Positions 4,325-60,657 of a stretch of DNA of 64,000 nucleotides are shown in pieces. The notes beneath the pieces are model-generated. The model worked only from the letters and a program-made list of their open reading frames with translations, was not told the origin of the DNA and searched no databases. Position numbers and translations under genes: made by a program. Position 1 is the stretch's first letter. The number at the start of each line of letters is the position of its first letter. This stretch comes from Daucus carota subsp. sativus (Eukaryota > Streptophyta > Magnoliopsida > Apiales > Apiaceae): contig NC_030381.2 of assembly GCF_001625215.2 (NCBI RefSeq), forward strand, positions 35,896,689 through 35,960,688, in the 5' to 3' direction.

Positions 4325-4880
4325 GCGTGCTGAATTAATACACAAGCATGAAAGCACAACAGCTGCAGTATGAGTGTCTGGCACTCACCATGTGTTACCA
4401 CATCTGTACATCTGCCATTCCTTCCTTATTTGGAAAACAAAAACTGTCACAGTGCACCCTAAAACTTGATGAATAACCAACATGGTCGGCCCACTTGTAG
4501 GGTTGCTGTCCTGGTCCAGGGAGCTTGGCAAAGAATTAGATTGCTCTGGAATTTGATATTTGTTGGAAGCCGTTCTATCCATTCACGATGACTATTTTTT
4601 CGTGCATAATAAATAAAAAATATATATTACAACATATGCTGATATATAATAATTTAGTCTCCAGAAAATTTTCCCTCTCATTACGTACAAAGTTCAAAAA
4701 AAATTGTAGACATATTAGAGATTTTCCTAAAGCCCAAAAATGGACTTTCGAGTGAGGAGGAACGTTAGAGTACAATATGACCCTGATAATCCTCCTCCTC
4801 CTAACACCTTGAGGTTTTAGGAAAACTTGTCACTTAACATAGAAAAAGGATATAAAAGAATGACCTGGGAGGTTTTCAAC
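4325..4880. repeat. Duplicated spacer upstream of DABB copy B
   Basis: Non-coding. It matches about 515-648 and 991-1413 of the first unit but lacks the MITE present there. No gene is seen. Confidence 0.75.
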
Positions 4881-4889
4881 TATAAATAA
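4881..4889 (+). promoter_or_regulatory. Likely TATA box of DABB copy B
   Basis: TATAAATAA is found about 50 bases before the ATG at 4932, in the same context as copy A. Confidence 0.6.
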
Positions 4890-4931
4890 GAGAGGGTGGT
4901 TTCATCAGATAACAAGCAAGTCCAAAGGAAG

Positions 4932-5624
4932 ATGGAAAACCAAAGTACAGAGGAGAAAAAGGGTGGGAAATGTGGAGGAGATTATAAACACTTGGTGCTA
5001 GGAAAGTTTACACAAGAAACGACTCAACAAGAGATAGATGATCTCATCAAGGGTTATGCCAATCTCGTCTCTCTCGTCCCTCCCATGATATCATTTCGCT
5101 GGCACTTTACACACCATCTCTTCTTACTTCTTTCCCTTCATTCTACTGTTTTTTATGACCATCACGATCATAGCAAGTGATGAGAAGATTATTGGAGTTC
5201 CATCTTATTAAGCACAATGTGAAGTACATTATCTATAATTTCTCAGACTTTATTTTATCTTGAAGCTGAAATCTCTCGTATTTTCTATAAATTCTTGTAG
5301 TTCTACAGGAGGTTTTGCTGAAAGTTCTTGGATACCTATTATATAGCAATGGCCTGGTTTCTAAACAATTCTAATGTTTCTTTCACTCCAATATGTAAAG
5401 GCAAGAAAATTTAATTAGTATTTCTACATTGTAGGGGCAAGGATGTGAGCCAGGAGAATTTGAACCAAGGTTATACCCATATCTTCGAGTCGACCTTTGA
5501 CAGCACAGAAGATATTGCAGAATATGTAGCTCATCCTGCTCATGTCGAATATGCAAATAAATTACTCCCTAAATTGGAGAAAGTGATCATCGTCGATTAC
5601 AAACCCGTTGCTGTTCATCCCTGA
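4932..5624 (+). CDS. Stress-response A/B barrel (DABB) protein, copy B, with altered splice donor
   Basis: Exon 1 is 4932-5101 and exon 2 is 5435-5624, predicting 119 aa with the usual length and TGA stop of the family. Residues 1-56 are nearly identical to copy A, and exon 2 is also almost the same. The intron donor, GT in copy A, is GC here (5102-5103, context CTG|GCACTT), which is a poor match even for GC-AG introns. If the intron is retained, translation runs on and stops at 5178-5180, giving a 82-aa protein that lacks the second half of the domain. The gene may therefore be functional only if the GC donor is used. Confidence 0.6.
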
Positions 5625-6478
5625 GCTGAATGCAGGACAGAAATCAATTATCTTTCCACTCCCGTTCTTGTATTTTCATTTATGTGTGAACCAGACTGTT
5701 TGCCCTAGCAACTTAATAAGCTGCAGCTGGATTGAATAATGCACTTTGTGGCTCACTTGTTTTAACCCATCTACTATGCAGATTATGTTTTTATTTTACT
5801 GATGAATCTTGATCTCTTATAATTTCTTACAAAGTATATATATATATTTCTAGTTATTTCAATGATCTTAAAAACAATTATGCTAAGCTGGCCGGATAAG
5901 AATTAACAGTTGTTGCTAGGTCAGGTGACCATGACATATTCATATTACTTTTCTCGGTTATTAAAAGGTGCGAGTTACCGATAACATCCTGAGTCCTGAT
6001 GATCAGATGGTATCACTCTCGCTCCGCTTGAATCGGGTTAAATTTGATGAACATCCAACTTACTTCCATACTTGGACATTTGAATGTGAACGAAGTTTTA
6101 AGAAATCATTTCACAGAAAAACTGTGTTTCAAAAATTCCCGATTTACTGAAAAATCTCTGGTTAATCCTTCAAATATATTTTAACAGTTTATCGATTACA
6201 CTCCGATTTGACTGAAAATTCCTAATTTATCGAAAAAGTCTCCGATGAATCCTAAATCCTAAATTATTAGATTAATCAATTAATTTCGTCTACGACCATA
6301 GAAAAACCCTGTTTTACTTGATGATGGAAGACTGCTTCACATAATTTAAGGATAAAAAGAGAGGAAATAAAAAAAAGTTAAAACCAATTTCTGTTACAAC
6401 TTTCTAAAACCAGGACCACGCAGATATATTATTTCTCTCAAGTTTATTAGCACCAGGGTCATACAAAATTGTGTTATT
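5625..6478. repeat. Duplicated block leading into PMEI
   Basis: Non-coding spacer repeating 2167-2993. It includes the 3' flank of the minus-strand PMEI gene (6418-6478), so both genes' 3' ends converge here. Confidence 0.75.
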
Positions 6479-19811: not shown

Positions 19812-21940
19812 CCCCACTAACTCTCAAACTTAAACATACAATCGCTCCACATACATATAACTGAACTCAAAGGACCCTTGTATTGAAATTCGATACTAGC
19901 CCTGTTCCCAAAAATCAATTTCTACGATTCTAACAAATTCTCACAAAAACAATAGCTTCACGCAATATTAACCACCAATCCTGAAAAATCGCATCGCCAC
20001 GTATCGAACTTCATCCTAATGTACCAACCTTCCCCTTATCTCCATACCCTGCACCAAACTTCAATCATTACGCCATCCCAACAACTACTTCTTGCAAACA
20101 GTGCTCACAAATCAGGATCATACAGCAAGAATATGCAAAATGGAATCTAACAACACTATAACAATAGACTCAAAAATACAAACTTGAGTTATGTTGTAAC
20201 ATAAAAATGAAAGTAATGACAATTAACCAAGCTAAAAAGTCAAAAAAGCTAAAAATAATGAGTGTAGTTAAGAAAGATGGGAACTTTATAACATTGCAAG
20301 AAAATCAATACTGAACAAGTTCAAGAACAAAGAAAATAAAAAAAAAATGAAAAAGATGTTAAAGTCTGCTAACTAAAAAGAATGAGAGAGATACCTGTGA
20401 TGGGTATTTCAAATACTTGTTGATTTTTGCAACATGGATCTTTAGACTTTGAGCTGGGGAGCTGCCTTGTCACTTCTTCATGTTTTGCTGTTTGTGCTCG
20501 GACACGACGTCGTTTTCGTAGTTTCTCCACTTCTCACCGCTTCCAGTTTTGTCCTTGCTCTTACAATTTTGTACCAGCTCTTTTGACATTTGTTTTAAAT
20601 ATTTATTTTTAAATAAAAATGAGTTGTGTTAGGATCGCAGTCGTTTTCGATTGACATAATTTTTTGAATAATTAATTTTAATAATTAAAATAAATATTAA
20701 TAAGTAGATCTTTAAAGAAATTTATAAATAAAATGACTGAAACTATGTTTAGATCAAAATATGTGATATATACTTGTAAAATATGACGAATTAAAAAACA
20801 CTCATATAATATATTGATTGACACAACAAAACTCTCTCAGATTTAGTCTCTATAAAGTTTAGTGTAAAACTAGTGTATTGTACTGGTCAATTTTAGTATT
20901 ATATAAATCTATATCGAGTTATTATTATGTATAAATCTATCAGATTTTTAATAAAATATAAAACCAGATCTTGATCAAGATAATAAAATAACATGATATC
21001 AATGGTTAGTTTATTTTGAATATATTTAATTCTAAACAAAATTATAATAAAGTGATGATATTTGGTATTGTTTAAATATTGAAATAAAATAATTTATATT
21101 TAATTTTTACACGTTATTAACAAGGCTTGAACTTGAATTGATATATAGTATCCTAATTACTAAATACAAAATATTTCTCAGTATAAAACAACTTAACGAT
21201 TTTAATCTATTCAAAAGATCAAAATTTGATCAGAAATAACTGAATATTAGTTTTGACTTTTAAATGATCATAGGAGATTCATTTTCTCTCATTTAAAAAT
21301 ATTAAATTTTGACAGAATGATTGGCATTTTTTAGCTAAATTTTTAGCGAAATCCATTCTTTTGTCCACATGGTACCTCAGAGACGAGAGAAAATGAGAAA
21401 TGTTCTTTTAGGGTTGCTCTGAATTCATGCATGGAAGAATTTTGACGATCATTGTCGTTCTCTGGAAGAAGAAAAAAAAAACACTATATATGTCCTTCAC
21501 TCTCTTACAATTACAATGTATTTCAAATTTTTTGATCGAAGAAAAGAAGAAGATAAAACGAGAGAAGAGAAAATTTTGATAAAAAGTGACAAGAGTGAGA
21601 GCTTCTCTTCAAATCATTTCATTTTTAGAGAGAAGATTTCGAAAGAAACTTGAAAGAATTTTCTTCTCTCGTATTTTCAACTCAGGAGCAAGTGTCATTG
21701 TTTGGTCCGATTTACACAATCTTATTGCTAGAAGCCACGGATTTAATCGAAACTATTTTCAAAGACAGTCTGTGATGCACAAGACCTTGAAACCAAGATG
21801 CATAAGCTTAAGATGTCTGTTAAGTGCCAAGACACTCAAAGCAAATAAAATACCATACTCCAGGTTTATCAGGCCAAAGAAAACTAAATACCATGCAGAC
21901 TAATAGACATAAAATTCACGACAAAACACCCGAGTTCTGA
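19812..21940. other. Galactosyltransferase leader and AT-rich intergenic DNA
   Basis: Positions 19812-20394 look like the 5' leader with a possible intron (donor ACAG|GTATCT on minus at about 20394). From 20600 to 21500 the sequence is very AT-rich with no gene. A purine-rich stretch spans 21535-21600. A 105-codon frame at 21586-21903 shows no family features. Confidence 0.5.
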
Positions 21941-22009
21941 TTTAGTCACACATAATAATAACTAGTTCTTGATCCATCCTCCAGAGTCCCGCCAAATGAC
22001 TTGCTTTTC
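21900..22009 (-). other. Probable 3' UTR exon of hAT-derived gene 1
   Basis: An acceptor CAG precedes 22009 on the minus strand, followed by GAAAAGCAAGTCATTTGG. The same landmark follows an acceptor in the matching place of copies 2 (26882) and 3 (32417). This would be spliced to the donor at 23191. Exact 3' end not determined. Confidence 0.5.
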
Positions 22010-23209
22010 CTGAAATATTATATACATATATGCAAAACGTAAGAACGGAAAATAAGCCACAGCAGCAAGAAGAAAGAAAGGCAGTGCAACTAGAAGATAT
22101 ATCAATATGGCTTATGATCCAGAAGCTCACTAGCTCAGAGCAGAAGACACTATGATACTGGAAGGAATTTCACAAGGAGACTTGCTTCTGTGATTCGAAC
22201 CCATAACAGATACGCAAGTAGGCATTTGACCATCACAGTATCACACCACACGACTTTCAAGAAGATATGAAACTACAGTAGTACACCCCTTGCAAATTTG
22301 TTGGTTGCTTGGGGAAATATATGAGAATGAAAGAGTTGGGTGCCTGACAGGCTTCAAAACTTCTGCTGTCATGGCACGGAACTTTTAGACTTGTAAATTT
22401 TTTCTCGTAACATATAAACTCTGGTGTAAAATGAGAAGAAAAAAGGTATTTCCAGTTTTCCACTGCTTAAATATATATCTCTCATTACCTCTATCCTTCT
22501 TTCATCATCTTTTCAAAATTATGAAACCCATAATAGCTAATAACAGATGCTTACACAGATTTCTCTTAAAGCAGTCCCTTGACTACCAACTTTAAAATGC
22601 CAACAACAAATAGTATGCTTATGTATAATAATTCGTGAAACTTAACAACACTTGTAAGAATGGGCTTAGTTTAGCCATAGAGAATCCACCCACAAAAGAA
22701 ATTAGGCAAAACTGATAAGGAAACAGATTTTATGCAGTCAAATTTGTCCACAGACCTATTTCCACCCACCCCGTGATTTATACATGGAAATATTAACTTT
22801 TTTATGAAAGAATAACATAAAAGATGACAAGGTTAAACTTAGTACTAGAGACTGCATAATTTCTGCCAAGTAAAAGGTGAAAACTGATAGTTGGCACTGA
22901 ATGCGTTCATGCATGAATGCTTAAATTTAATGTAGCCCTTCAGTAAATACTAAGTTTTGACACGTAAAAAAGCTATTGGCACAAGTTATTGAAGATTTTC
23001 TAAGAAACTAGATACATAATTATTCTGCAGAAAACAAGGATTAAAAAATAATTTATTTATGTGTAAGTAATATATATTATGGTTGATGACCTAAATATGG
23101 GCAGCTATAGCCCAGTAAAAGTAAAAACAGAACAATTAGGATATAATTTGGCGAAGGACATTATCTATACGAAGGTTCATGTAAGCTCACCTCACTAAGT
23201 CAACAGATC

Positions 23210-24904
23210 TCAGTACTTTGGAGAATAGCTCCGAGTGCACGCCAAGGCATTAATTAGAACTGGTCCTAACGAATCAAGAGATTTATCAGCCATTCGATAA
23301 TCCTGGTAAACAAAAGCTTCATATGAACTGGCTACAGAGAATGGTATTGCTAAAAGGTCGCGCGCCATCTTGGACAGTACAGGATACTTGGGGCTTTCGG
23401 TTCTCCACCAACTCATTAAGTCGAAATCCTTCGTCCATGGCAAGACAGGCTCATCAAAGTACCATTCCAGTTCAGACTTTGGGGGTTGATCACCTGGTTT
23501 AATAAACTCATTATACTCATCCATACAATTAAACCCAAAGTTGCAGTTTTTTAGTCTCTCAAGTGTATGCATAGGGAGATCTTCTTCTTCTTCTTCCAAA
23601 GTTTCTTCTTCAGAATCTCGATCAGGGGGCTTTAACTCAGAAGGCTTTGATTCAGAAAGTTTCGAAGATTTCAGTGCTTCAGTACTATGCATCTTATAAT
23701 CATCATATATCCCCCGAATGGCCTCCAGAATAGTTGTGACTTTTGAGTTTCCGGAGTTATCATCATACTTCAAAAAGGAAAATTCTATATATTTCATCTT
23801 ACAGCGCGGATCCATCACAGTAGCGATAGCCAATAACAAAAACATGTCATTCCAGTACTCATCAAACTTCTGTAGCAGATCTGTAGCTAGATCCAACCTG
23901 TCAGTACTCATAGATTCTTTCCTCAAGCTTGCCTGAAGCTGATGCAGATTATGAAGATATAGGCTGGCTGTAGGATTTTTTGTGAAGAACAATACTTCTG
24001 CTGCATTATATATGTATGCCACCAGTCTACAAACATATCTAAGTTTCTTCCATTCTTTCTCATCGGGTAAGTCCTCATGCTCGGAATGATATTGCTCCAA
24101 AAATTTTCCTTTAGCCTCCAAATCTATTGCTTCTTGTAGACTGCTTAATGTAATATGCCAATGAGAGGAACGTACTGACAATCTATCAATGATATCTTCA
24201 ATTTCTTCAAAAGCCACTTCCACCATTTGACATAAAAGATTCGAACAACAATATATTCCAAATTGCTGGCACTTAATTTGTAGCTTTTTCTTCTCATTAG
24301 GGAGATTCTTCAAAGTCTCGATCATGTCATCATATTCAGATCTGTCTCTGGGTGTTATGGTGGATATCTTTTTCTCAATGTGAAAATCTGAAAGGCATTT
24401 CAAAATGGTCTTCTCAGCGCCATTTTTAAAGATGTGGTCTGTATCAATATAACAAATAACCCATGACTTTGGTTCCCAGTTATCATCAATAAAGTGAGCT
24501 CTTAAGCACAAATAGTCAAAAACTGTTCGTCCTTCAGGAAGCTCAAGACTATAATAATCATAAGTGTCTCGCCTGAGTATGTCCATCGACAGGGCAATCA
24601 ACCCGTCCAATTTTTCCATAGTCTGCACAACTTTTGCTTTCTCTTCTTGATAAACCTTCAAGCAACTACGTTTTAGTTCAAGATAACTAAAAGGAAAGCT
24701 TGGGTTCATCATCATTGTCAACTTTTTTATAGATGAAAAAGAAATTTCTGCTGAGCAAACAAACCTTCCCATTGATTCATAAACTCCCTCCACATTGATA
24801 CCAGACTCATTATTGGAAGCAGGATTGGCTTGTTGCTTGTCAGCTCTAGAAAAGTATCTAGTAATACGATTGCTTTCTTCAAATTTACGTTTACCCTTAT
24901 CCAT
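23210..24904 (-). CDS. hAT transposase-derived protein, copy 1 (564 aa)
   Basis: Intronless coding region; the ATG at 24904 lies two bases after an acceptor (CAG before 24906). Residues ~47-110 follow the hAT pattern SFSSIKKLTMMMNPSFPFS...CLKVY...LIALSMDIL. Then LRAHFIDDNWEPKSW (134-148), the DUF4413/RNase-H-like FFTKNPTASLYLHNL...FDEYWND...LAIATVMDPRCKMKYIEF, and the C-terminal dimerisation region SWWRTESPKYPVLSKMARDL. No BED zinc finger is present. By eye, the second catalytic Asp is replaced (R186) and the Glu of the ASE motif by Tyr528, while D108 is kept. A Ser/Pro/Glu-rich linker lies at ~430-460. It resembles RICESLEEPER/DAYSLEEPER-type domesticated transposases, although those usually keep the zinc finger. 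Function unknown. Confidence 0.8.
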   Translation of the reverse strand: MDKGKRKFEESNRITRYFSRADKQQANPASNNESGINVEGVYESMGRFVCSAEISFSSIKKLTMMMNPSFPFSYLELKRSCLKVYQEEKAKVVQTMEKLDGLIALSMDILRRDTYDYYSLELPEGRTVFDYLCLRAHFIDDNWEPKSWVICYIDTDHIFKNGAEKTILKCLSDFHIEKKISTITPRDRSEYDDMIETLKNLPNEKKKLQIKCQQFGIYCCSNLLCQMVEVAFEEIEDIIDRLSVRSSHWHITLSSLQEAIDLEAKGKFLEQYHSEHEDLPDEKEWKKLRYVCRLVAYIYNAAEVLFFTKNPTASLYLHNLHQLQASLRKESMSTDRLDLATDLLQKFDEYWNDMFLLLAIATVMDPRCKMKYIEFSFLKYDDNSGNSKVTTILEAIRGIYDDYKMHSTEALKSSKLSESKPSELKPPDRDSEEETLEEEEEDLPMHTLERLKNCNFGFNCMDEYNEFIKPGDQPPKSELEWYFDEPVLPWTKDFDLMSWWRTESPKYPVLSKMARDLLAIPFSVASSYEAFVYQDYRMADKSLDSLGPVLINALACTRSYSPKY

Positions 24905-24924
24905 ATCTGAAAAACACAATGCGA

Positions 24925-25190
24925 GTGTAAAGAACAATTGTGTATGCCACAAGCCAACATCAACATAAAATATAGCCGAAGTCTTCCACATATATATATT
25001 CTACCGTGTTTGTGTTTATACCTCCTTATCACTCGCTTCGCTGTTTAAAAGTGTGTGTAAAAGAACAATTGTGTATGCCACAAGCCAACATCAACATAAA
25101 ATATAGCCGAAGTCTTCCACATATATATATTCTACCGTGTTTGTGTTTATACATCCTTTTCACTCGCTTCGCTGTTTAAAAGTGTGTTTA
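24925..25190. repeat. Tandem duplication of ~131 bp in the leader intron
   Basis: Two adjacent near-identical copies (about 24925-25055 and 25056-25190) lie inside the intron before the ATG of hAT-derived gene 1. Copies 2 and 3 have nothing equivalent. Confidence 0.85.
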
Positions 25191-25716
25191 GAAGCTGTTC
25201 GATATTTAGCCTCATCCAAATCCTTATTAATGAATTGCACATTGTATGAGAATTGAGGTATTTAATAATCACATCTAGGCTTCCAACTCCATTTTTTTAT
25301 AATTAACGCAATCCAACCAAATGCAGTCATACCTTCTGTTTCTACTACAAGTTCAATACTGAATCAATTTTATCATAACAATTACAAACAACAAAATGAA
25401 TGGGGACAGATCCCTAACGATATATAAAGAAATATGCTATCAATTTCTGATGAAAAATAAAGCAATCACAAAAACCCTAGTACAAACCCTTAACCTAAAA
25501 AATTATTTTTATTTCCGAAATAATACATTTTTGGCGGGAAAATTACTTTCTTTATTCAAACACACTACATAGAGATGGACAAAAAAGAACCCTAGAAACC
25601 AACTTCATTGCAATACATTATGCATATTCAGTTTAATGGATCTCATATATAACATTAGCAACCAAATGCATATGAATTTTCATGTAGATTAATTTGATTA
25701 AACAGATAGAAGATAC

Positions 25717-25770
25717 CTTAAGTCGAGGAAGAAAGACAGGGAGAGCCAAAAGCCACAGAGCGTGTAGTCG
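25717..25770 (-). other. Probable 5' UTR exon of hAT-derived gene 1
   Basis: A good donor (TAAG|GTATCT, exon end 25717) faces the acceptor at 24906, implying an 810-bp leader intron. Copies 2 and 3 have donors in matching places (30810, 35998). The transcription start is not resolved. Confidence 0.5.
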
Positions 25771-26599
25771 TATAAGAGTCTTATGTTTGACAAATTTATA
25801 GTGGGTGTTGATGGGCTTACGAAGTTTTACAGGCCCAATACATATGTTAGGTGTTGATTCAGTTTACTGGTCAGAAGACTCAGAACTCAGATCTGTTGGA
25901 CATGAAAATGTTTTTTTTTTTTTGGGCAGTTATTTGGGACATATAATTCCGCCCAAACCTTTAGCCGAAAAGTTGAAATTATGAAAAAGATTGTAGAGTA
26001 ATTTCTGATTTAATATAAATTATATTTGTCTACAAATTTGATTATCATTTGATATTTGATTATATTTATCTAATAAAGATTATTTTCATATATTTTTCGT
26101 TTAATTAATTGTATTATCTTTAATATTGATTCATATATTATCAAGACTTTCTCGTGAACTTAACCTTATCTCTGTATAGATAATTATCGGGAATTTGTTT
26201 GATTATCATTTTTTTACTAACATTGCATTATAAATGATCTTGAAATTTTACATAAAATAGATGATGAAGATGGAGTCCTACTCAAGTCCTTGCTAGTTGC
26301 TACCATTTTATTCGTTTCAGAATGGGTATTAAAATTTAAATATGACAAACCCTGCTCAAATCCCTTGCTATTTGCTAGCTTTAAAAAAAATATTAAAACT
26401 AAACAAAGTTTTTATTATCGTACAAGACTGAAGAAACTTATGGCTAATGATCGATGAAGTCAGTTGTCTAGAATTTGTTTATGTTTTCTTGAAATAAAGA
26501 ATAATTATCTGTAGTAACCTTGCAATTTTTTCTAACACATACAAATTATCTTTTATCAAAAGAAAATTTAATTAATGGCTGATACGCAAATAGGAAAGT
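25771..26599. other. Spacer between hAT-derived genes 1 and 2
   Basis: AT-rich, no gene. About 26150-26580 is related to pieces of 31080-32170, so the tandem unit includes this spacer. Transposon termini bracketing the units were looked for and not found. Confidence 0.55.
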
Positions 26600-26882
26600 A
26601 ATAGAAAGCATTGTAATGTCTACTAAAATACTTCAAACAAATCGCACAATACTAGAAGTTAGCGTTTTCTGCCAAAAGGAAACTAGATCTAATGCAATGC
26701 AAACACATAATACTTGAAGTCAGCGTTTTCTGCCAAAAGGAAACTAGATCTAATGCAATGCAAACTACTCACGAACGAAGCCAACAAACAAAATCCATGA
26801 CAAAACCACCAATGCTTTGATCCGATGATGCAGGATCCACGCCTCCTGATTCCTGAACCCCTTCCAGATGACTTGCTATTCC
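26600..26882 (-). other. Probable 3' UTR exon of hAT-derived gene 2
   Basis: Begins after an acceptor CAG (exon start 26882) with GGAATAGCAAGTCATCTGG, matching 32417 downward in copy 3. A 60-bp segment is duplicated in tandem within it at about 26645-26765. Would be spliced to the donor at 28818. Confidence 0.5.
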
Positions 26883-27463
26883 CTGACAAATATATGCAGA
26901 AATCAGGCAAGTCATGTCCACTGCAACAGCAATAAGACATTAAGTAAAAGATATTTCGGTGAGACTTAATAATGAGCTACATCACACAGAAAACATAAAC
27001 TAGAAGATGGCAAGACTTGTGAGCTACACATCACAACAGCCTGAAACCAGAACATATATTTATTATTAATTGAACCCATTAACAAACGTATATGCATAAT
27101 GCATGTATATAATTTTACCATCACATCACGCATGATTCTTATGTAAACCCAGCAAATCAATTGCTTATTTGCATAGACATATGAGAATTAAACAAGAGTA
27201 GAGTACCTGAACTGACCCAGCTTTACATTTTTACTTGGGGTACCACAAAACTTCCTGACTCTTGAACTTTTTCCCAAAGAAGAAAAAGATAATTGTGTGA
27301 AAATGATATGGCATTTCTAAATGGATCCAAAAGATAAAAAAATGATACACAATGAATATACATACATACATATATATATATATATCCTTCTCTCTCAGAA
27401 CTTTTTCCAAAAAAAAAGAAAAGAAATAAATTGCGTGAAGATTATATAGCATTTCTAAATGGA

Positions 27464-28061
27464 GGCTCCCTTACAAAAATGACCAGTTTGAACTCGTTCT
27501 TTTAAAAAACAACCAGTTTCGTTTCGACTTTTCAAAACTAACCAGTCTAATTCAACTGAATTTGGGCGACCTATATAGGAACCTGGAGGACGCAAGGGTC
27601 GCCCCTGACATGGGCGACCTACACCTCACTTGTTTTAAGCTTGGGTCGCCCTGTACACGGGCGACCCTATGTACTTATCCAATCTTAAATCAGGTGTGAT
27701 TTACTGGTGTTCATTTTGTTTACTCAAAAGAGCCAAGCAAGTGGCAATCATGAATTGGAAAGATACAGTTTTGCATGAGTTGCCACTTGCTTGGCTCTTT
27801 TGAGTAAACGAAATGAACACCATTAAATCACACTTGTTTTAGGATTGGATAAGTATATAGGGTCGCCCTTGTACAGGGCGACCCATGTCGGAAAAAAAAT
27901 TAACTGAGGTCGCCCATGGCAGGGGCAACCCCTTCCTCAAAATCTTTTCAGCTTGGGTCGCCTAAGTTCCAATTAAATAGACTAGTTAGTTTTAAAAAGT
28001 CAAAACGAAACTGGTTGTTTTTGAAAAGGCGTTTCAAACTGGTTAGTTTGGTAAGGGAGCC
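27464..28061. mobile_element. 598-bp long-hairpin transposon with 10-bp target duplication
   Basis: Almost the whole element is one inverted repeat centred near 27758: ends GGCTCCCTTAC and GTAAGGGAGCC, inner arms include GAGCCAAGCAAGTGGCAA and its complement. Flanks are TCTAAATGGA (27454-27463) and TCTGAATGGA (28062-28071), a 10-bp duplication with one mismatch, suggesting a Mutator-like MITE. GTCGCCC/GGGCGAC motifs recur along both arms. The matching place in copy 3 (about 32871-32890) is empty. It sits in the 3' UTR intron of hAT-derived gene 2. No protein coding. Confidence 0.85.
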
Positions 28062-28836
28062 TCTGAATGGATTTGAAGGACAAAGATATGATATACAATG
28101 CTCATGTAATATCTATAAATCCTTCCCACATCATCTTTATAAATCAATAAACTCAAATAACTACTTCTCTGGAGTACCAACTACTAATCAATATACCGGC
28201 TATGTTTTCAAATCCGCCAAACTTCATAATGCATATAAGCTTAGTGAAACCAATAAACATGTAGAATACACCCTTAAAACCATGTATTTTAAATTTATAT
28301 ACATTTTTCAACATTATCGTCAATTCAAATGATCAAAAATTAAAAAGTACAACGAAGTCAAAATTAAAACAACTAACCAACAAAATTTGCTCAGGGACTT
28401 GACTCTCTCCAATCCTGTAAAGGGTTTCAAAAAATATTTTCTTAAAATAATACAATATATAATCAAAAGTGAAACCTAATATTAATAAGAGAATGCATGA
28501 ACTAATACTTCAGAAAAGAAAGAAGATAGTATGCAATGAATGTGTTCATGCATTTATATAATGTAGAACTGTAGATCCTAACAACTCTTGAAACTTCAAA
28601 AGAAGTAGCAGCACTACTTACTCAATATTTTTTACAAAAACGAGATGACAATCATTCTAAGAAATGAAAATTTTGAAGGAATACGTTACTAAAAGTAAAA
28701 TAATATTTCCTGGGCTTACACTCCTCAGTCCTCATGAAAATATGGGATACAGCCTTCTTGACGTGATAAAGAACTTTAACATGCAATTTCGCAAAGGAAA
28801 AGGGATAATTACCATACCTAAATACGATGAAGAACT

Positions 28837-30369
28837 TCAGTCCTCTTTAAAATAGCTCCGACTGCACACCAATGCATTAACTAAATCTCGTCCCAGAAAA
28901 GCAAGACTTTTATCAGCCGCTCGAGAATCTCTGTAATAATAAGCTTCATATGAACTGACTAGTGAAAATGGTATTGCCAAAAAGTCGCGGGCCATCTTGG
29001 ATAATATAGGATATTTGGGGCTTTCAGTTCTCCACCAACTCACTAAGTCAAAATCCTTGCTCCATGGCATGACAGGCTCATCAAAGTACAACTCCAATTC
29101 AGATTTTGGGGGTCCATTGCTTGGTTTAAGAAACTCATTATACTCATCTAAACAATTAAACCCAAAGTTACAATTTTCGAGTCTCTCTAGTGTATGCTTT
29201 GGAATTCCTTTGCAGTCAGAACAAAGTTCATCCCCGTCCGAGTCTGAATCTGATTTAGAAGGTTTTAAACCAGAGGGCTTTGGATCAGAAGGCTTGGAAG
29301 TCTGTGATTCAAGACTATGCATCTTATAATCATCATATATCCCCCGAATTGCCTCAAGAACAGATATGACTTGCGTGTTTCCTGAATTATCCTCATACTT
29401 CAGAGATGAAAATTCTATATACTTCATCTTGCAGCGTGGATCCAGCACAGTAGCAATAGCCAGCACCAAGAACATGTCATTCCAGTACTCATCAAACTTC
29501 TTTAGAAGATCTGTGACTATAGTTAACCTGTCAGGACTGATAGACTCTTTCCTCAAGCTTGCCTGAAGCTCCAGAAGATTATGAAGATATAGGCTAGCAG
29601 TAGGATTTTTTGTGAAGTACAGTATCTCTGCTGCATTATATATGTAATCCACCAGTCTGCAAACATATTTAAGTTTAGTCCATTCTTCCTCAGTAGGTGG
29701 ATCAAAATAATCACAACCAAACAGCTCTGAAAATTCTCCATCAGCCTCCGCCTTCATCGCATTTTGTAGTGTACTGAATGTAAGGTGCCAGTACATAAAA
29801 TTTTTTTGTGTTATTTTCAAGATAATGTCAGAAATGTCCTTAAAAGCTGCTTCCACCATTCTGCCTAAAAGGTTAGCACAACAATATATTTTAAATGGCT
29901 GGCAATTTGATTGCAGTGTTTTCTTCTCCTTAGCCTGGTTTTCTACAACCTCAATCAGTTCAAAATACATATTATCATATGCACGTGTCACAGTGAATAT
30001 CTTATTCTCAATGCGCATATCCAAAATACATTTCAGAATTGTCTTCTCATAGCCAGTTTCCATAATGTGGTCTGCATCAACATAGTAAAGAACCCACGAC
30101 TTTGGTTTCCAATTATCATCAATAAAATGAGCTCTGACACACAAATAGTCAATAATCTCTGGCTCATCACAATCTTTGGGACGAGGAAGACCATAAGTGT
30201 CCAGCCTCAATAACTCAATCGAGAGGGCAATCTGTCCATCTAAATTTTCCAAAATCTTAATAACTTTTGCTACCCCTTCCTGATAAACTTTTAAGCAACT
30301 GCCTTTAAATTCACCATAACTAAAAGAAAAGCCCGGGTTCACTCCCGGATTACGTTTACCCTTATCCAT
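28837..30369 (-). CDS. hAT transposase-derived protein, copy 2 (510 aa)
   Basis: Intronless coding region starting at ATG 30369, two bases after an acceptor. Collinear with copy 1 from the NPGFSFSY region onward but lacks the ~60-residue N-terminal stretch; MDKGKR joins straight to NPGVNPGF. Conserved blocks include LCVRAHFIDDNWKPKSW, FFTKNPTASLYLHNLL-like (here YFTKNP), KFDEYWNDMFLVLAIATVLDPRCKMKYIEF and SWWRTESPKYPILSKMARDFL. The first catalytic Asp position is Glu (E52, ALSIELL), the second Asp region reads TVTRAYD, and the ASE Glu is Tyr. The linker carries SKPSDPKPS and an acidic run. More similar to copy 3 than to copy 1. It has no frameshift or stop, so translation appears maintained. 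Confidence 0.8.
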   Translation of the reverse strand: MDKGKRNPGVNPGFSFSYGEFKGSCLKVYQEGVAKVIKILENLDGQIALSIELLRLDTYGLPRPKDCDEPEIIDYLCVRAHFIDDNWKPKSWVLYYVDADHIMETGYEKTILKCILDMRIENKIFTVTRAYDNMYFELIEVVENQAKEKKTLQSNCQPFKIYCCANLLGRMVEAAFKDISDIILKITQKNFMYWHLTFSTLQNAMKAEADGEFSELFGCDYFDPPTEEEWTKLKYVCRLVDYIYNAAEILYFTKNPTASLYLHNLLELQASLRKESISPDRLTIVTDLLKKFDEYWNDMFLVLAIATVLDPRCKMKYIEFSSLKYEDNSGNTQVISVLEAIRGIYDDYKMHSLESQTSKPSDPKPSGLKPSKSDSDSDGDELCSDCKGIPKHTLERLENCNFGFNCLDEYNEFLKPSNGPPKSELELYFDEPVMPWSKDFDLVSWWRTESPKYPILSKMARDFLAIPFSLVSSYEAYYYRDSRAADKSLAFLGRDLVNALVCSRSYFKED

Positions 30370-30809
30370 GTCTGAAAATCGCAATGCATAAAAAAGATCC
30401 GATAAGTACAATCAACTAAAATATCACAATATATAACAGAGAATCAGTAAGTTTCAACCAAATAAACCCCTCAACAAAACACTACATAATCACATGAATT
30501 AAACGCCTTGTAGTATATATAACATATTGCATCCTCTAAAACCCTAATCTAAACCCTAGTTTATTTAACTGAACTAACATGTTTACATTCATATGGTGGT
30601 GAAAAAGTGACTATATCATCATTCAAACACAACAGATTACATGAATATAACCGCAAAGAACCCCAGTAACAAATTAAATACAGACAGTAAAACATCTAAT
30701 AAAAAAAATATCAAAGTAACAAACTAAATAAGGATCAAACACTATAAAAATATAGAAATGCAGATCAAAAACACATGTGTTGAGTTGATTGGAGCAAAGA
30801 GAAGAACAC

Positions 30810-30860
30810 CTGATTAGAAGACGAAACGACGGAGAATGCGAAAAGACTCTAGGGTAAAAT
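30810..30860 (-). other. Probable 5' UTR exon of hAT-derived gene 2
   Basis: Donor AATCAG|GTGTTC (exon end 30810) faces the acceptor at 30372-30373, giving a leader intron of about 440 bp. The equivalent donor in copy 3 is at 35998. Confidence 0.5.
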
Positions 30861-31296
30861 GAGTCTAAAGAGACTGTAGTCTACTGGTTTATATAATGGG
30901 TAAATTTGTCTTACCATTTTAACCCCTCAACGCCCCAAATTTATTGTAATTTAATTGGAAAATGTATGTTATGCATTTAAAGATTGTTTCTAAGATTGTG
31001 CTCCTAAATTTTTTTTTGGGATACAAAATAAATGAATGTGAGTGAAAATTCTCATTTTCAGAGTGAAAGTTTTGGGGTTAACTGGCCGATCTCTATATGG
31101 ATAATTGTCAGGAATTTATATGATTACTAGTATTTTTTTATTAAACATAATACTGCATTATAAATGACATTTAGATTTTAAACAAAATAGTTGATCAAAT
31201 AAGTCCCGGTGTTCTTGCTAGTTGCTACCGCATTATAAATGATTTGTGAATTTTAAACAAAATAGATGATCAAAGTAGTCCTCGAGTTCTTGGTAG
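30861..31296. other. Spacer downstream of hAT-derived gene 3
   Basis: AT-rich, no gene. Part of it is related to 26150-26340 and shows an internal repeat around CATTATAAATGA near 31145 and 31230. Confidence 0.5.
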
Positions 31297-31680
31297 TTGT
31301 GAAAAATGACCCATATCTTATAAATTTTGGAAGCAATCTTCGGAATAACACTGTTTAACGCTATGATAATCTAGCGTTTCAATTTGGGAAGAAAATATTA
31401 TATCGTGTAATATTTTGATGTTTTAACATCATCAAAACGCTACACGATATAGCGTCTTGATGTTTTAACCCCATCAAAACGATACACAATGTAGCGTTCT
31501 ATTAGGTTAACCTAACATAACGCTGCATAAACTAGCATTCTGTTTTTTTTTTTTCAAAGTCCCAGCATTCTGTTCTTAATCCGTTTAATCCTAACAGAAT
31601 GCTACACGATGTAGCGTTACTAAATGTTATTTGGAGCCATTTTTTCGAATCCTGATATTGATATTTAGACCATTAATCAT
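31297..31680. repeat. Dispersed repeat with multiple short palindromes
   Basis: Contains about five imperfect palindromes of the type ACGCTACACGATGTAGCGT spaced through 300 bp. A relative lies reversed at about 63190-63420, sharing the flank AGTTGTGAAAAATG. It interrupts the spacer relative to the unit at 26150-26580. Class unknown. Confidence 0.6.
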
Positions 31681-32169
31681 TAATATGATGATAGTGAGGG
31701 CCAACACCGAAGAATTCCGTGTATATAATCATATTACTTTATTGATAATTCGGAGAACCTGATCATATTATTTTATTGACAATTTGAAGAATCTATTCTT
31801 AGAATGGAGAAGACTAAAATCGATTGCTACCCTCTTATTCGTTTTAAAATGACTCTGAAATTTAAACTTGGCTGTCCCTGCTCAAATCCCTTGCTAGTCA
31901 CTACCTTTGCAAAAAAATATTAAAACTAAACAAAAGTTTTTAAAAATATTGAAACTAAACAAAAGTTTTTATGACCAAAGAAGACTGAAGCAACTTATGG
32001 CTAATGATCGTTTTAGTCGGTTGTCTAGAATTTGTTTTTGTTTTCCTTAAAATAAAAAAATTTGTTTGCAAATGCTTTCCGTGTACAATCCCCTAGTCCA
32101 GGTATTAACCGTAAACCGATAGCTATCTCTTGTAACCTTGCATTTAATTTCTAACATTGATCAAAAGAA

Positions 32170-32417
32170 AAATTAAATAATGGCTGATACGCAAATAGGA
32201 ATTTAATAGAAAGCATTGTATTGTCTACTCAAATACTTCAAACAAATCCCATAATACTTGAAGTCAGCGTTTTCTTCCAAAAGGAAACTAGATCTATTGC
32301 AAGGCAAGCTACTCATGAACGAACCCAACAAACAAAATCCACGACATAACCACCAAAGCTTTGATCTGATGATGCACAATCCACGCTCCTGAACCCCTGC
32401 CAGATGACTTGCTATTC
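32170..32417 (-). other. Probable 3' UTR exon of hAT-derived gene 3
   Basis: Begins at 32417 after an acceptor CAG, with GAATAGCAAGTCATCTGG. Homologous to 26600-26882. Would be joined to the donor at 33618. Confidence 0.5.
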
Positions 32418-33636
32418 CTGACAAATATACAGCAATATGACATTAAGTAAAAGATATTTAGGTCAGACTTAATTATGAGCTACATCACAAAGAAGACGTA
32501 AACTAGAAGATAAGGCAAGACTATGAGCTACAAGTCAGAACAGGGAGAAGCTATGAGACCAGAACATAAACTTGTTATTATTAATAGAACCCATTAACAA
32601 ACTTATATGCATGTATATAATTTTACCAATACACCACGCACGCTTTTTACACAGATATAAAACTACACCCCCTGCAAATAAATTGCTTACTTAAACAGAC
32701 ATATGAGAATTAAACAGGAGTAGATAATTGCATGAAAGTGATATGGCATTTCCAAATGGATCCAGAGGACAGAAATATGACATGCAATGCATACATAGAT
32801 ATCTATATATCCTTCTCTTTCATAACTTTTTCCCCAAAAAAGAAGAAGATAATTGCGTGAAAATGATATGGCATTTCTAAATTGATCCCGAGGACAAAAA
32901 TATAATATACAATGCTCACATATATATCAATATATCCTTCTCTAATCATCTTTATAAGTCAATAAACTCAAACGACTACTTCTCTTGGAGCAGTCCCAAA
33001 TGCCAACTACTAATCAATATACCGGCTATGTTTTGAATCCGCCAAACTTCTTAATGCATATAAGCTTACTGAACCCAATAAACATATAAAATGCACCCTT
33101 AAAGGCCATTTGTTTTCAATTTATAAACACTTTCCAAAATTATAGTCAATTCAAGTGGAATAATAATCAAAATTTAAAAGGTAATACGAAGTCATAATTA
33201 AAACAATTAACCAACAAAGTTTGCTCAGGGACTTGAATCTCTCCAATCCTGTAGAGAGTTTTAAAAAATATTTTCTTCTTAAGAAAATAGAATAAATAAC
33301 TAAAAGCGGAACCTAATAATAAAGAATGCATGAACTAATACGTCAGGAAAGAAAGAAAATAGTATGCAATGAATGTGTTCAACTGTTCATCCATTTATAT
33401 AATGTAGATCTGTAGATCCTAACTCTTGAAACTTCAAAAGAAGCTGCAGCCCCACTTATTCAATATTTTATACAAAAACGAGATGACCAGTCATTCTAGA
33501 AATTTTAAATTTTGAAGGAATACGTTATTAAAAGTAAAATAATATTTCATGGGCTCACATACCTCATGAAGATATGGGATATAGCCTTCTTGATGTGAAA
33601 AGAGAGAATTATCATACCTAAATACGACAAAGAACT

Positions 33637-35142
33637 TCAATCCTCTTTAATATAGCTCCTAGTGCACACCAATGCATTAACGAGATCACGTCCCAGGAAA
33701 GCAAGACTTTTACTGGCCGCTCGAGAATCTCTGTAGTAATAAGCTTCATTTGAACTGACAAGTGCAAATGGTATTGCCAAAAAGTCATGGGCCATCTTGG
33801 ATAGTATAGGATATTTGGGGCTTTCAGTTCTCCACCAACTCACCAAGTCAAAATCCTTGCTCCATGGCATGACAGGCTCATCAAAGTACAACTCCAATTC
33901 AGACTTTGGGGGTCCATTGCTTGGTTTAAGAAACTCATTATACTCATCTAGACAATTAAACCCAAAGTTGCAATTTTGGAGTCTCTCGAGTGTATGCTTT
34001 GGAATTTCTTCGCAATCAGAAAAAATTTCCCAGTCTGAGTTTGAGTCTGATTCAGAAGCTTCTAAATCAGAGGACTTCGAATCAGAAGGCTTGGAAGTCT
34101 TCGGTTCAAGACTATGCATCTTATAACCATCATATATCCCACGAATTGCCTCCAGAACAGATGTGACTTGCATGTTTCCCAAATTACCCTCATACTTCAG
34201 ATATGAAAATTCTATATACTTCATCTTACAGCGTGGATCCAGCACAGTAGCAATAGCCAACACCAAGAACATGTCATTCCAGTACTCATCAAACTTCTTT
34301 AGCAGATCTGTGACTATAGTTAACCTGTCAGGACTGATAGACTCTTTCTTCAAGCTTGCCTGAAGCTCCCGAAGATTATGAAGATACAGGCTAGCAGTAG
34401 GATTTTTTGTGAAGAACAGTATCTCTGCCGCATTATACATGTAATCCACCAGTCTACAAACATATTTAAGTTTAGTCCATTCTTCCTCAGTAGGTGGATC
34501 AAAATAATCACAACCAAACAGCTCTGAAAATTTTCCATCAGCCTCCGCCTTTATCGCCTCTTGTAGTGTACTGAATGTAAGGTGCCAGTACATATAATTT
34601 TTTTGCGATATTTTCCAGATTACATCAGAAATGTCCTCAAAAGCTGCTTCCACCATTCTGCCTAAAAGGTTAGCACAACAATATATTTTAAATGGCTGGC
34701 ACTTTGATTGAAGTGTTTTCTTCTCCTTGGCCTGGTTTTCTACGACCTTAATCAGTTCAGAATACATAATATCATACGCACGAGTTACAGTGAATATCTT
34801 ATTCTCAATGCGCATATCCGAAATACATTTCAGAATTGTCTTCTCGTAGCCAGTTTTCATGATGTGGAGTGCATCAACATAGTAAAGAACCCACGACTTT
34901 GGTTTCCAATTATCATCAATAAAATGAGCCCTGACACACAAATAGTCAATAATCTCTGGCTCATCACAATCTTTGGGACGAGGAAGGCCATAAGTGTCCA
35001 GCCTCAACAAGTCAATCGAGAGGGCAACCCGTCCATCTAACTTTTCAAAAATCTTAATAACTTTTGCTCTCTCTTCCTGATAAATTTCTAAGCAACTACC
35101 TTTAAGTTCATCAGAACTAAAAGAAAAGCCACCCTTATCCAT
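33637..35142 (-). CDS. hAT transposase-derived protein, copy 3 (501 aa)
   Basis: Intronless coding region from ATG 35142, again two bases after an acceptor. Collinear with copy 2, with an even shorter N-terminus (MDKGGFSFSS). First catalytic Asp is retained (D44, ALSIDLL), but the second region reads TVTRAYD and the final motif is SSNEAY instead of an ASE-type motif. The RNase-H-like and dimerisation blocks are intact. The linker between ~375 and 405 is Ser/acid-rich and differs from the sister copies more than flanking domains. No frameshifts. As in the others, a donor lies 19 nt after the stop. Likely a domesticated, non-transposing protein; biochemical role unknown. Confidence 0.8.
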   Translation of the reverse strand: MDKGGFSFSSDELKGSCLEIYQEERAKVIKIFEKLDGRVALSIDLLRLDTYGLPRPKDCDEPEIIDYLCVRAHFIDDNWKPKSWVLYYVDALHIMKTGYEKTILKCISDMRIENKIFTVTRAYDIMYSELIKVVENQAKEKKTLQSKCQPFKIYCCANLLGRMVEAAFEDISDVIWKISQKNYMYWHLTFSTLQEAIKAEADGKFSELFGCDYFDPPTEEEWTKLKYVCRLVDYMYNAAEILFFTKNPTASLYLHNLRELQASLKKESISPDRLTIVTDLLKKFDEYWNDMFLVLAIATVLDPRCKMKYIEFSYLKYEGNLGNMQVTSVLEAIRGIYDGYKMHSLEPKTSKPSDSKSSDLEASESDSNSDWEIFSDCEEIPKHTLERLQNCNFGFNCLDEYNEFLKPSNGPPKSELELYFDEPVMPWSKDFDLVSWWRTESPKYPILSKMAHDFLAIPFALVSSNEAYYYRDSRAASKSLAFLGRDLVNALVCTRSYIKED

Positions 35143-35301
35143 ATCTGAAAATCGCAATGCATAAACAAATATCCAATAAGTACAATCAACTAAGACATCG
35201 CAATATATAACAGAGAACCAAATAAACCCCTCAACAAAACACTACGAGATCACAAGAATCAAACGCCTTGTAGTTTCACTTAAAAGAATATGTATAACAT
35301 A

Positions 35302-35702
35302 GAGTAAAAATTCAGTTTGGTAGCTAAAGTTTTCAAAATGTTGACCAATGTTCTAAAATAATAAAATTGTGGCCGGACTTTTCCTCCGGTTTTAAAAAAA
35401 GTGGTTTTTGTGAATTCCCATTAACAATACACCCTTAAGGATTAACAATTAAAGAATAAAATTCAAGATAATGGCTAAAGTTTTTACATTTTCACAAAAT
35501 ATTGGCTCATTGATACAAACTTTAGCCACCATCTTCAAAATACTCCTTAATTTTAAATCTTTAACAGTGTATCATTAATGAGAGTTAGCAACCACTTTTT
35601 TGATAAGGAAGAAAAATCCAGCCAACATTTTGCTATTCAGAGAAATAAACCAACATTTCATGAAAATCCGAAAATTTTAACCACTATCTTGAAATTTACT
35701 CT
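35302..35702. mobile_element. ~400-bp inverted-repeat insertion in the leader intron of hAT-derived gene 3
   Basis: Ends are imperfect inverted repeats beginning AGAGTAAA, continuing as (A/T)TTCA...GTAGCTAAAGTTTT on the left. Copy 2 runs straight through the matching place (about 30515-30530, ACATATTGCATCC), so the site there is empty. Flanks TATAACATA and TGTAATATA may be a diverged target duplication. Confidence 0.65.
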
Positions 35703-35997
35703 GTAATATATTGCATCCTCTAAAGCCCTAATCTAAACCCTGGTTTATTTAACTAAACTAACATGTGTATATTCATATGGTGGTGAAAAAGTTATTATAT
35801 TATCACTCAAACACGACAGATCACATGAATATAACCGCAACGAACCCCAGTAATAAATTAAATGCAGACTGTAAAACATCAATTAAAACAAATAATCTCC
35901 ATGATAACAAACTAAAGAAGGATCAAACACTATAAAATACAGGAATGCAGGATCAAAAACACATGTGTTGAGTTGATTGAAGCAAAGAGAAGAAAAC

Positions 35998-36050
35998 CTG
36001 ATCGGAGACGAAACGACAGGGAATGCGAAAAGACTCTAGGGTAAAATGAG
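35998..36050 (-). other. Probable 5' UTR exon of hAT-derived gene 3
   Basis: Donor GATCAG|GTTTTC (exon end 35998), matching that of copy 2 in surrounding sequence. The leader intron would be ~850 bp, including the ~400-bp insertion. Confidence 0.5.
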
Positions 36051-36288
36051 TCCAAAGAGAGTCTCGGCTACTTGTTGCTTATATAATGGGGTAAAATTAT
36101 CTTACCATTTCTGACCCCCTCAACGCCAAATTTTTTTTGTTGTGCTTTAGTTGGAAAATGCTGAGTACGAAGTATCCAAAAATTGTTTTCAAAGTTATTT
36201 AGAAAATTATTCTCAGTTTTTTTCTTCTAAATTTCAGTTCGTAATATTTGATTGGTTATATTTACACTTAGATAATAATAGTTTAGAA

Positions 36289-37006: not shown

Positions 37007-37848
37007 TTTTGATATTTTTCATCCAAAAATTTCAGAAAAATAGAACGGAGCGATGTGAGAGGCGTCACCTACACGCCCCTCGCTTCTCCTTTAAAAATCG
37101 AGTAAGAGAACTATCAGGTAGGTTTGTGGTATTGAGAGAGGAGGTTGTGTTTAGATGATCCAAAACCCTACGATCTATACAGGTATTTATAGGTGCAGGG
37201 AAACTTGTTTGCTACTCTTTCCCATAATTAAATAATCTGAACAAAATCAGATTAAAATTTTCAAGTTACTATATTCCATAAATAATCTGTCTTTCCCATA
37301 ATTAAATAATTTAAAACAAAATCAGATTAAAACTTTCAAGCTACTATATTCCATAAATAATCTGAAACAAAATCAGATTCTGAAACTTGCTTCTAATATA
37401 CCCGAAACTAAAAAAGATAGTTCTAATAACAAAATCAGATTAAAACTTTCAAGCTACTATATTCCATAAATAATCTGAAACAAAATCAGATTCTGAAACT
37501 TGCTTCTAATATACCTGAAACTAAAAAAGGTAGTTCTAATAACAAAATCAGATTAAAATTTTCAATCTAATATATTCCATAAATAATCTGAAACAAAATC
37601 AGATTCTGAAACTTACTTCTAATATATCTGAAACTAAAAAAGGTAGTTCTAATTTTTGATATTTTTCATCCAAAAATTTCAGAAAATTAGAAAAACAGAA
37701 CGAAGCGATATGAGAGGCGCCACCTACACGCCCCTCGCTTCTCCTTTATTTAAGTTTCATCCAAAAATTTCAGAAAATTAGAAAAACAGAACGAAGCGAT
37801 ATGAGAGGCGCCACCTACACGCCCCTCGCTTCTCCTTTATTTAAGTAT
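37007..37848. repeat. Complex tandem repeats
   Basis: Two repeat types. A ~95-bp unit with GAGAGGCGCCACCTACACGC occurs at about 37007-37105, 37653-37752 and 37753-37848. Between these, 37219-37650 holds about three copies of a ~125-bp unit with ACAAAATCAGATTCTGAAAC. No coding evidence. Confidence 0.75.
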
Positions 37849-59926: not shown

Positions 59927-60657
59927 GAGGTGTATTCAATTGAGATATTAATGGATTATTTTTAGTTAATGGATTTTAATGGATTCTATGTGATTTTAAT
60001 TTTGTGCGGATTCTTGATGAAATATCGTAGAGTTGACGGGATTTAAGCACAATGCTTCAAAATCTCATGGATTTTGGTGGGATTTCAAAAAACTTAAAAT
60101 ACACTGAAGAATGCCACAAAATCCATAATTTTATGAAATCCAAAAAAAATCCATCAGTATTTGAATACCACCAGATTTTAATGGATTTTAAACAATCCCA
60201 ATTGAATAATATCAGATTTTAATGGATTGTAAACAATCCTAATTGAATACCACCAGATTTTGTAGCATAATTTAAAATCCCAATTGAATACCTCAAGATT
60301 TTAATGGAGAGACAAAAGAGAGTGTATTCGATTGGGATATTATAGCATTTTTTTTTCATTCATGCTATCCGAGGGTATTCGATTGAGATTGTTTGAAATC
60401 CATTAAAATTGGATGGTATTCAAATGCTAATGGATTTTTTTTGAATTTCAAAAAATGATGGATTTTGTGGCATTCTTCAGTGTATTTTAAGTTTTTTGAA
60501 ATCCCACCAAAATCCATGGTATTTTGAAGCATTGTACTTAAATCCTATCAACTCTGCGACATTTTATCAAGAATCCGCACAAAATCAAAATAACATACAA
60601 TCCATTAAAATCCATAAACTAAAAACAATCCATTAAAATCTCAATTGAATACACCCC
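59927..60657. mobile_element. ~730-bp element with long inverted arms
   Basis: Ends GGTGTATTCAATTGAGAT on both sides in inverted orientation; arms extend over 200 bases (TGTGCGGATTCTTGAT and complement are shared). The centre holds two to three short direct repeats around TTGAATACCACCAGATTTT at 60160-60300. Likely a foldback/MITE element, non-coding. Confidence 0.75.

Follow-up and report, generated by a model that had tools for sequence, protein, structure and literature searches.

The window analysed here, a stretch of 64,000 nucleotides from Daucus carota subsp. sativus (NC_030381.2; C1:35896689-35960688), carries a tandem array of three minus-strand open reading frames related to hAT transposases, and it raises the question of whether these are mobile elements, their remains, or genes that the plant has taken over. 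The evidence gives good support to domestication: a single plant gene of hAT-transposase origin appears to be present here in three tandem copies. The three frames share the start MDKG:

23210..24904, minus strand: copy 1 coding exon, 564 codons, with about 60 N-terminal residues that have no counterpart in copies 2 and 3
28837..30369, minus strand: copy 2 coding exon, 510 codons, with Glu at the first catalytic Asp
33637..35142, minus strand: copy 3 coding exon, 501 codons

Coordinates and translation agree with the three open genes of 564, 510 and 501 codons given in a preliminary description of this DNA. At the protein level copies 2 and 3 are 87% identical, copy 1 is 63–64% identical to either, and copy 1 has, by eye, a short KGKRK start. 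Pfam searches matched hAT-like_RNase-H (E 4e-23 to 3e-21) and Dimer_Tnp_hAT (E 1e-19 to 2e-18; 66.5–70.5 bits, cut-off 21.4) in all three copies, which places them in the hAT transposase protein superfamily as defined by an RNase-H-like and a dimerisation domain.

Catalytic positions were read from a 29-row alignment of the hAT proteins of this genome (26 rows plus the array). In copies 1, 2 and 3 the first catalytic Asp reads D/E/D, the second R/A/A and the ASE-type Glu Y/Y/N, so that the second Asp and the Glu are substituted in every copy and copy 2 has Glu at the first Asp, exactly as first described; none of the copies carries the Asp-Asp-Glu triad of a hAT transposon. The His of the CxxH motif, on which that description was silent, is Asn in all three copies. 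The Trp two positions after the first Asp has become Leu in 3/3 copies, with 12–13 residues inserted there, and 32–33 core residues, including the LDxxTR segment, are absent from all three. The majority of these changes, being shared by all three copies, are probably older than the array. In the 18 rows outside the array and its nearest relatives, the SLEEPER-like genes and a group that we call B, neither the second Asp nor the CxxH His is lost (18/18 each), and the Glu is kept in 15/18, the remaining three being truncated or unaligned there. The SLEEPER-like and group-B genes are intermediate: they retain the second Asp in 5/8, the CxxH His in 1/8 and the Glu in 3/8. The proposed comparison with Hermes was made by profile alignment. 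It covered the first Asp and the Glu but was displaced by two columns at the second Asp, so the position of the latter rests on the plant alignment. A Glu sits one position past the lost catalytic Glu in all three copies, and some slight chance is left that this neighbour has a shifted catalytic role.

The BED finger was also sought at several levels. Pfam detected no zf-BED in the three array proteins at E ≤ 1, in agreement with the original view that the hAT core and C-terminal dimerisation regions are kept and the finger is not; Pfam may overlook plant BED fingers, as zf-BED reached E ≤ 0.001 in only 6 of the 10 relatives scanned. The conserved CLxxYQE block is preceded by 80 residues in copy 1, 24 in copy 2 and 16 in copy 3, which leaves no space for a BED finger in copies 2 and 3. 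A tblastn search with eight BED queries over 21.0–37.5 kb returned nothing convincing. Its best match (E 0.036) covers 15 residues in the predicted leader exon of copy 3 (36013–36057) and was taken as chance, and a finger in an upstream exon was rejected on this result. A BED remnant in the N-terminus of copy 1 was likewise rejected: its first 66 residues compared with the N-termini of eight relatives at shuffle level (p 0.07–0.97).

The open frames with lost catalysis had been interpreted as selection for a new role, such as DNA or protein binding, an interpretation staked on a ratio of nonsynonymous to synonymous rates (dN/dS) between copies that is not near 1. By NG86 the three comparisons gave 0.39 (bootstrap 95% interval 0.30–0.51), 0.36 (0.28–0.46) and 0.34 (0.22–0.54), and LWL85, YN00 and maximum likelihood gave 0.40–0.50, for an overall range of 0.34–0.50. 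Mobile elements may also give dN/dS below 1, so the changes that followed the split of copies 2 and 3 matter. With copy 1 as outgroup and 21 ambiguous sites dropped, the copy 2 branch carries 13 synonymous and 22 nonsynonymous changes (p = 0.016) and the copy 3 branch 23 and 26 (p = 2.6e-5), in both cases too few amino-acid changes. In a neutral simulation of 4000 runs, with substitutions only and without indels, the frame stayed open in 1.5% of runs for copy 2 and 1.7% for copy 3 at 0.065 changes per site, and in 0/4000 for copy 1 at 0.30 changes per site. Read from the codons, these results establish that the frames of the array have been held by purifying selection. This part of the new-role proposal stands; a DNA-binding role is less supported, no finger being left. 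Between copies 2 and 3, dN/dS is 0.14 in columns 460–560, the dimerisation region (11 synonymous, 7 nonsynonymous changes), and 0.79 in the least constrained columns 60–160, at the N-terminus (5 and 16), a regional pattern that we regard as a hint and not a proof.

The repeat takes in non-coding sequence at the DNA level, with coding and flanking blocks aligning between units. Every unit has a TATA-like box, a homologous GT ending the leader exon, a TTTTCAG acceptor shortly before the ATG, a GT 19 nt past the stop, and AGCAAGTCAT after the trailer acceptor. Introns with GT/AG ends were called at corresponding positions of the three units, and are predictions from sequence only:

24907..25716, minus strand: copy 1 leader intron, predicted, AAG/GTATCT ... 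TTTTTCAG/ATATGG
30372..30809, minus strand: copy 2 leader intron, predicted, CAG/GTGTTC ... TTTTCAG/ACATGG
35145..35997, minus strand: copy 3 leader intron, predicted, CAG/GTTTTC ... TTTTCAG/ATATGG, holding an insertion of about 430 bp
22010..23190, minus strand: copy 1 trailer intron, predicted, donor 19 nt past the stop, acceptor TTTCAG/GAAAAGCAAGTCAT
26883..28817, minus strand: copy 2 trailer intron, predicted, donor 19 nt past the stop, acceptor GTCAG/GGAATAGCAAGTCAT, holding a foldback element of about 600 bp
32418..33617, minus strand: copy 3 trailer intron, predicted, donor 19 nt past the stop, acceptor GTCAG/GAATAGCAAGTCAT
25792..25801, minus strand: copy 1 TATA-like box, CTATAAATTT
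30886..30896, minus strand: copy 2 TATA-like box, TTATATAAACC
36076..36086, minus strand: copy 3 TATA-like box, TTATATAAGCA

Since the upstream and predicted-intron regions recur in each unit, whole units were duplicated: the aligned units establish that the copies of this finger-less array arose by duplication of units together with those regions. The common leader and trailer layout and the local amplification of a gene, both proposed earlier, were recovered in this way, the former in 3/3 units as predicted introns. The span originally assigned to the array does contain the three units; its upper limit of 36050 falls slightly short, because the TATA-like box of copy 3 reaches 36086. Nonsense-mediated decay of the transcripts through the trailer intron was considered and rejected, the predicted donor lying only 19 nt past the stop and so inside the rule of about 50 nt that governs this process.

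Several units contain further repeats. The foldback element in the trailer intron of copy 2 (27462–28064) has inverted ends GGCTCCCTTAC and near-identical flanks of 9–10 bp (TCTAAATGGA/TCTGAATGGA), and resembles a Mutator-type miniature inverted-repeat transposable element. The insertion in the leader intron of copy 3 (35274–35704) is not in copy 2 and has an internal inverted repeat at 35357–35637, and the 3' end of the copy 1 leader intron has a 131-bp tandem duplication (24925–25194). Direct tandem repeats with units of 113 bp and 91 bp lie just upstream of the array at 37240–37845. Elsewhere in the window, a direct duplication of about 2 kb lies near the start (992–2993 and 4473–6469, 86.5% identical), and a self-complementary stretch of about 730 bp (82%) at 59929–60655 is likely a foldback element.

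Transposon ends were sought by scanning within 4 kb for 12-bp terminal inverted repeats (TIRs) with 8-bp target-site duplications (TSDs), at four settings and with comparison to shuffled sequence. The scan found no match for any of the three copies at any setting (shuffle means 0–0.1) and no outer TIR/TSD pair around the array as a whole, and the array as one large transposon was rejected on this result. As a control, the same scan detected ends at 4/5 other hAT elements of the genome: these were clear at L058, L059 and L060 and weaker at L061 (two TIR mismatches and a TA-repeat duplication), and no TIR/TSD ends were found at L062. L059, L060 and L061 further gave chance-like matches with one mismatch per side. 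Four SLEEPER-like genes, scanned with flanks of 2.05–3.9 kb, showed no exact duplication and three matches at the one-mismatch setting; these lie above the 0.1 per copy of the array shuffles, and we take them to be chance. The preliminary description had denied that transposon termini bracket the units and had named flanking TIRs with 8-bp duplications as evidence that would overturn its view; the outcome, 0/3 copies against 4/5 controls, agrees with it.

Genome-wide searches (441 Mb, 11 contigs) with copies 1 and 3 as queries found, among the 77 of 286 and 86 of 272 candidates scored, three full copies and one fragment and no further full copy, a scope in which weaker relatives may be missed; the genome holds at least 150 hAT dimerisation-domain matches. 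Other long matches to the array have about 20–35% identity, with short stretches of the dimerisation region reaching 49%. The fragment (L029:4744-5146; C5:25036243-25036645) is a stray truncated copy comprising 403 bp of the 3' end of copy 1 at 94% DNA identity, about 560 bp from a local tandem-repeat block. It has 3 synonymous and 5 amino-acid changes against 1 and 0 in copy 1 (2 ambiguous): the events are few, and their direction is the expected one. No relatives turned up in viral contigs searched with A1 or A2.

To place the array among other hATs, trees were built from 26 rows plus the array, all from this genome and with no named SLEEPER sequence among the rows. Rows were frames of at least 450 aa: 17 of 53 loci were left out because they were short, were repeated or lay in the window, and of 38 frames 12 were dropped (5 duplicate genes, 2 second frames, 4 near-copies at ≥96% and one 73% relative of L049). 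The clade labels (group B, Ac-like, SLEEPER-like, Tip100-like) are our own, and beyond the nuclear localisation signal of L042 the SLEEPER-like label rests on general resemblance. In L042 the signal KRRKKKS stands ahead of a finger-like segment, compared with KRRKKKK in DAYSLEEPER (PMC4029315). The nearest groups to the array are five SLEEPER-like genes and three group-B genes; zf-BED is matched by Pfam in 5/8 of these, and the fingers of L017 and L042 are seen by eye only. The SLEEPER-like paralogue L012 (C5; L030:2002-2296) has its BED finger divided between two frames, which may reflect a second finger loss in this genome, an unmodelled intron or an assembly error.

The array groups with these eight genes against 18 other hATs with support of 97/98, and in a trimmed 24-row tree against 13 other hATs with 98/99. 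A Glu-Pro motif in the dimerisation region is present in 3/3 array copies, 6/8 SLEEPER-like and group-B genes and 0/16 of the others covering the region, and the CxxH His is lost in 3/3, 7/8 and 0/18, respectively. Global hhalign profile scores were 332 for group B, 304 for Ac-like, 289 for SLEEPER-like and 283 for Tip100-like, and 374 for the combined SLEEPER-like plus B profile. The leader intron was set aside as proof of kinship, an AG acceptor near the ATG being seen by eye in SLEEPER-like, group-B and other rows alike. SLEEPER-like ancestry of the array is likely, although short of shown. With SLEEPER-like genes as its nearest relatives, the array resembles an offshoot of a family that the plant had already domesticated more than a fresh domestication. 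The host-gene reading with SLEEPER precedents, offered in the preliminary description, is refined by this kinship in the trees, while approximately unbiased (AU) tests leave the placement short of decisive.

The SLEEPERs (DAYSLEEPER, RICESLEEPER, VINESLEEPER and CYTOSLEEPER) are hAT-derived host genes of angiosperms (PMC3499209). According to that description they resemble the array in keeping the dimerisation domain while being without transposition residues and hAT repeats, and their Ka/Ks values, 0.28 for DAYSLEEPER and 0.29 for CYTOSLEEPER, compare with the dN/dS of 0.34–0.50 obtained here (PMC3499209). The array has the dimerisation domain, its transposition residues are gone and flanking hAT repeats were not found; it has no BED finger, whereas the same paper states one for all SLEEPERs. 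Other traits of the family are a K/R-rich nuclear localisation signal next to the finger and three conserved sequence motifs, SLEEPERmotifs 1–3 (PMC3499209). As the published description requires the finger, the array would be not a SLEEPER but a finger-less relative. Further differences are the loss of about 32 core residues and the arrangement as three copies in tandem. The main text of the SLEEPER paper nowhere uses the word 'tandem' (PMC3499209), and none of the literature matches listed describes a SLEEPER-like array of this kind, tandem and without fingers. Vertebrate ZBED genes are also described as hAT-derived regulatory host genes with one expanded clade (PMC3606216), but they are named for the BED finger and belong to another lineage. 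The CGGBP genes, for which part of a hAT transposase is reported to have been domesticated repeatedly (PMC8097297), mirror the array: they keep the DNA-binding domains, while in the array the finger is gone and the core and dimerisation regions remain. Kat1 of Kluyveromyces lactis is likewise a domesticated hAT transposase, described as making hairpin-capped DNA breaks (PMC4763223), whereas the catalytic residues of the array are lost.

Taken together, these observations make it probable, in our judgement, that the array is a finger-less, catalytically dead relative of SLEEPER type, duplicated in tandem and perhaps acting via dimerisation. Its parent would have been a BED-bearing SLEEPER-like host gene and not a live transposon, and the finger would have been lost before the array formed; for both steps our confidence is moderate. 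Much more tentatively, the array proteins might work by pairing through the kept hAT C-terminal dimerisation domain: with the pairing domain kept and both finger and active site gone, a role as pairing partner would be the best explanation. The array proteins could form dimers without any finger, or pair with BED-bearing SLEEPER-like proteins into mixed dimers that would weaken or redirect the DNA binding of these partners. MicroProteins act on transcription factors in like manner. The more specific proposal that the array encodes dimerisation-only regulators holding finger-bearing SLEEPER-like proteins off DNA, as a transposase-derived counterpart of microProteins, strikes us as rather unlikely. 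DAYSLEEPER is reported to homodimerise through hAT blocks D–F, and its version without residues 1–142 to be cytoplasmic (PMC4029315).

Several points weigh against a selected SLEEPER-type pairing partner. The introns of the array are predicted, and its pairing role is a tentative one. The N-terminus of DAYSLEEPER is essential (PMC4029315), so the array could not simply do its job. The constraint on copy 2 alone reaches only p = 0.016. It is only in the comparison of copies 2 and 3, with 18 changes, that the dimerisation region shows the strongest constraint; in comparisons with copy 1 the lowest dN/dS lies elsewhere (0.31 in columns 360–460 for copy 2, 0.24 at 160–260 for copy 3). An AlphaFold model from the three copies was unusable (mean pLDDT 36). 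Some of the SLEEPER-like and group-B genes still have the second Asp or the Glu, which makes the losses in the array additional steps; the CxxH His, moreover, can be lost in parallel. In the tree, the tie of the array inside the SLEEPER-like/B clade is unsupported (67/51) and its branch is very long, at about 2 changes per column. AU tests allow the array in any of five other hAT sets (p 0.14–0.27) and an attachment outside SLEEPER-like plus B (p 0.43).

These placements leave a minor but real chance of a fresh, independent domestication, in which the plant took over a mobile hAT transposase whose ends had been lost, with tandem duplication following. By BLAST, copy 1 reaches 171 bits with L028 and 167 bits with L027, both Ac-like rows, against 175 for the best SLEEPER-like row, and the Ac-like profile outscores the SLEEPER-like one; against this, both trees join the array to SLEEPER-like plus B, the Glu-Pro motif and the CxxH loss are common to them, and group B is the best single profile. 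Another use of the protein, as a DNA- or chromatin-binding host factor relying on the remaining core instead of the finger, seems unlikely to us. In Hermes the hAT core contacts transposon DNA. The Hermes right end is also reported bound to no BED domains (PMC10368747), but here the LDxxTR core segment is missing, the active-site motifs are gone and the strongest constraint between copies 2 and 3 lies in the dimerisation region.

The array may instead consist of decaying copies of a recently dead gene, with leftover frames and a low dN/dS that predates the array. Insertions in two predicted introns and the truncated copy elsewhere would fit, yet we hold this improbable: the constraint persists after the split of copies 2 and 3, neutral frames rarely stay open, and predicted splice sites and TATA-like boxes are kept in 3/3 units. 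Least credible of all, despite the hAT domains, are still mobile or mobilisable hAT elements in tandem. A mobile element is contradicted by the TIR/TSD scan with its controls, by the three full copies found in the genome and by the lost residues; a working transposase is very unlikely to be encoded by the array because the catalytic residues, the core segment and the finger are missing and no transposon ends were found.

Beyond the preliminary description, the analysis brings out the core deletion and the CxxH loss that the copies share, tests for TIRs against controls, shows constraint on individual branches, finds a low number of copies across the genome and points to a likely relationship to SLEEPER-like host genes. 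If the array is indeed a selected, finger-less and amplified relative of these genes, a host may keep parts of a hAT transposase without its DNA-binding part. Mixed dimerisation among SLEEPER-like proteins has been raised as a theoretical possibility (PMC3499209), and the array names three specific genes with which it may be probed.

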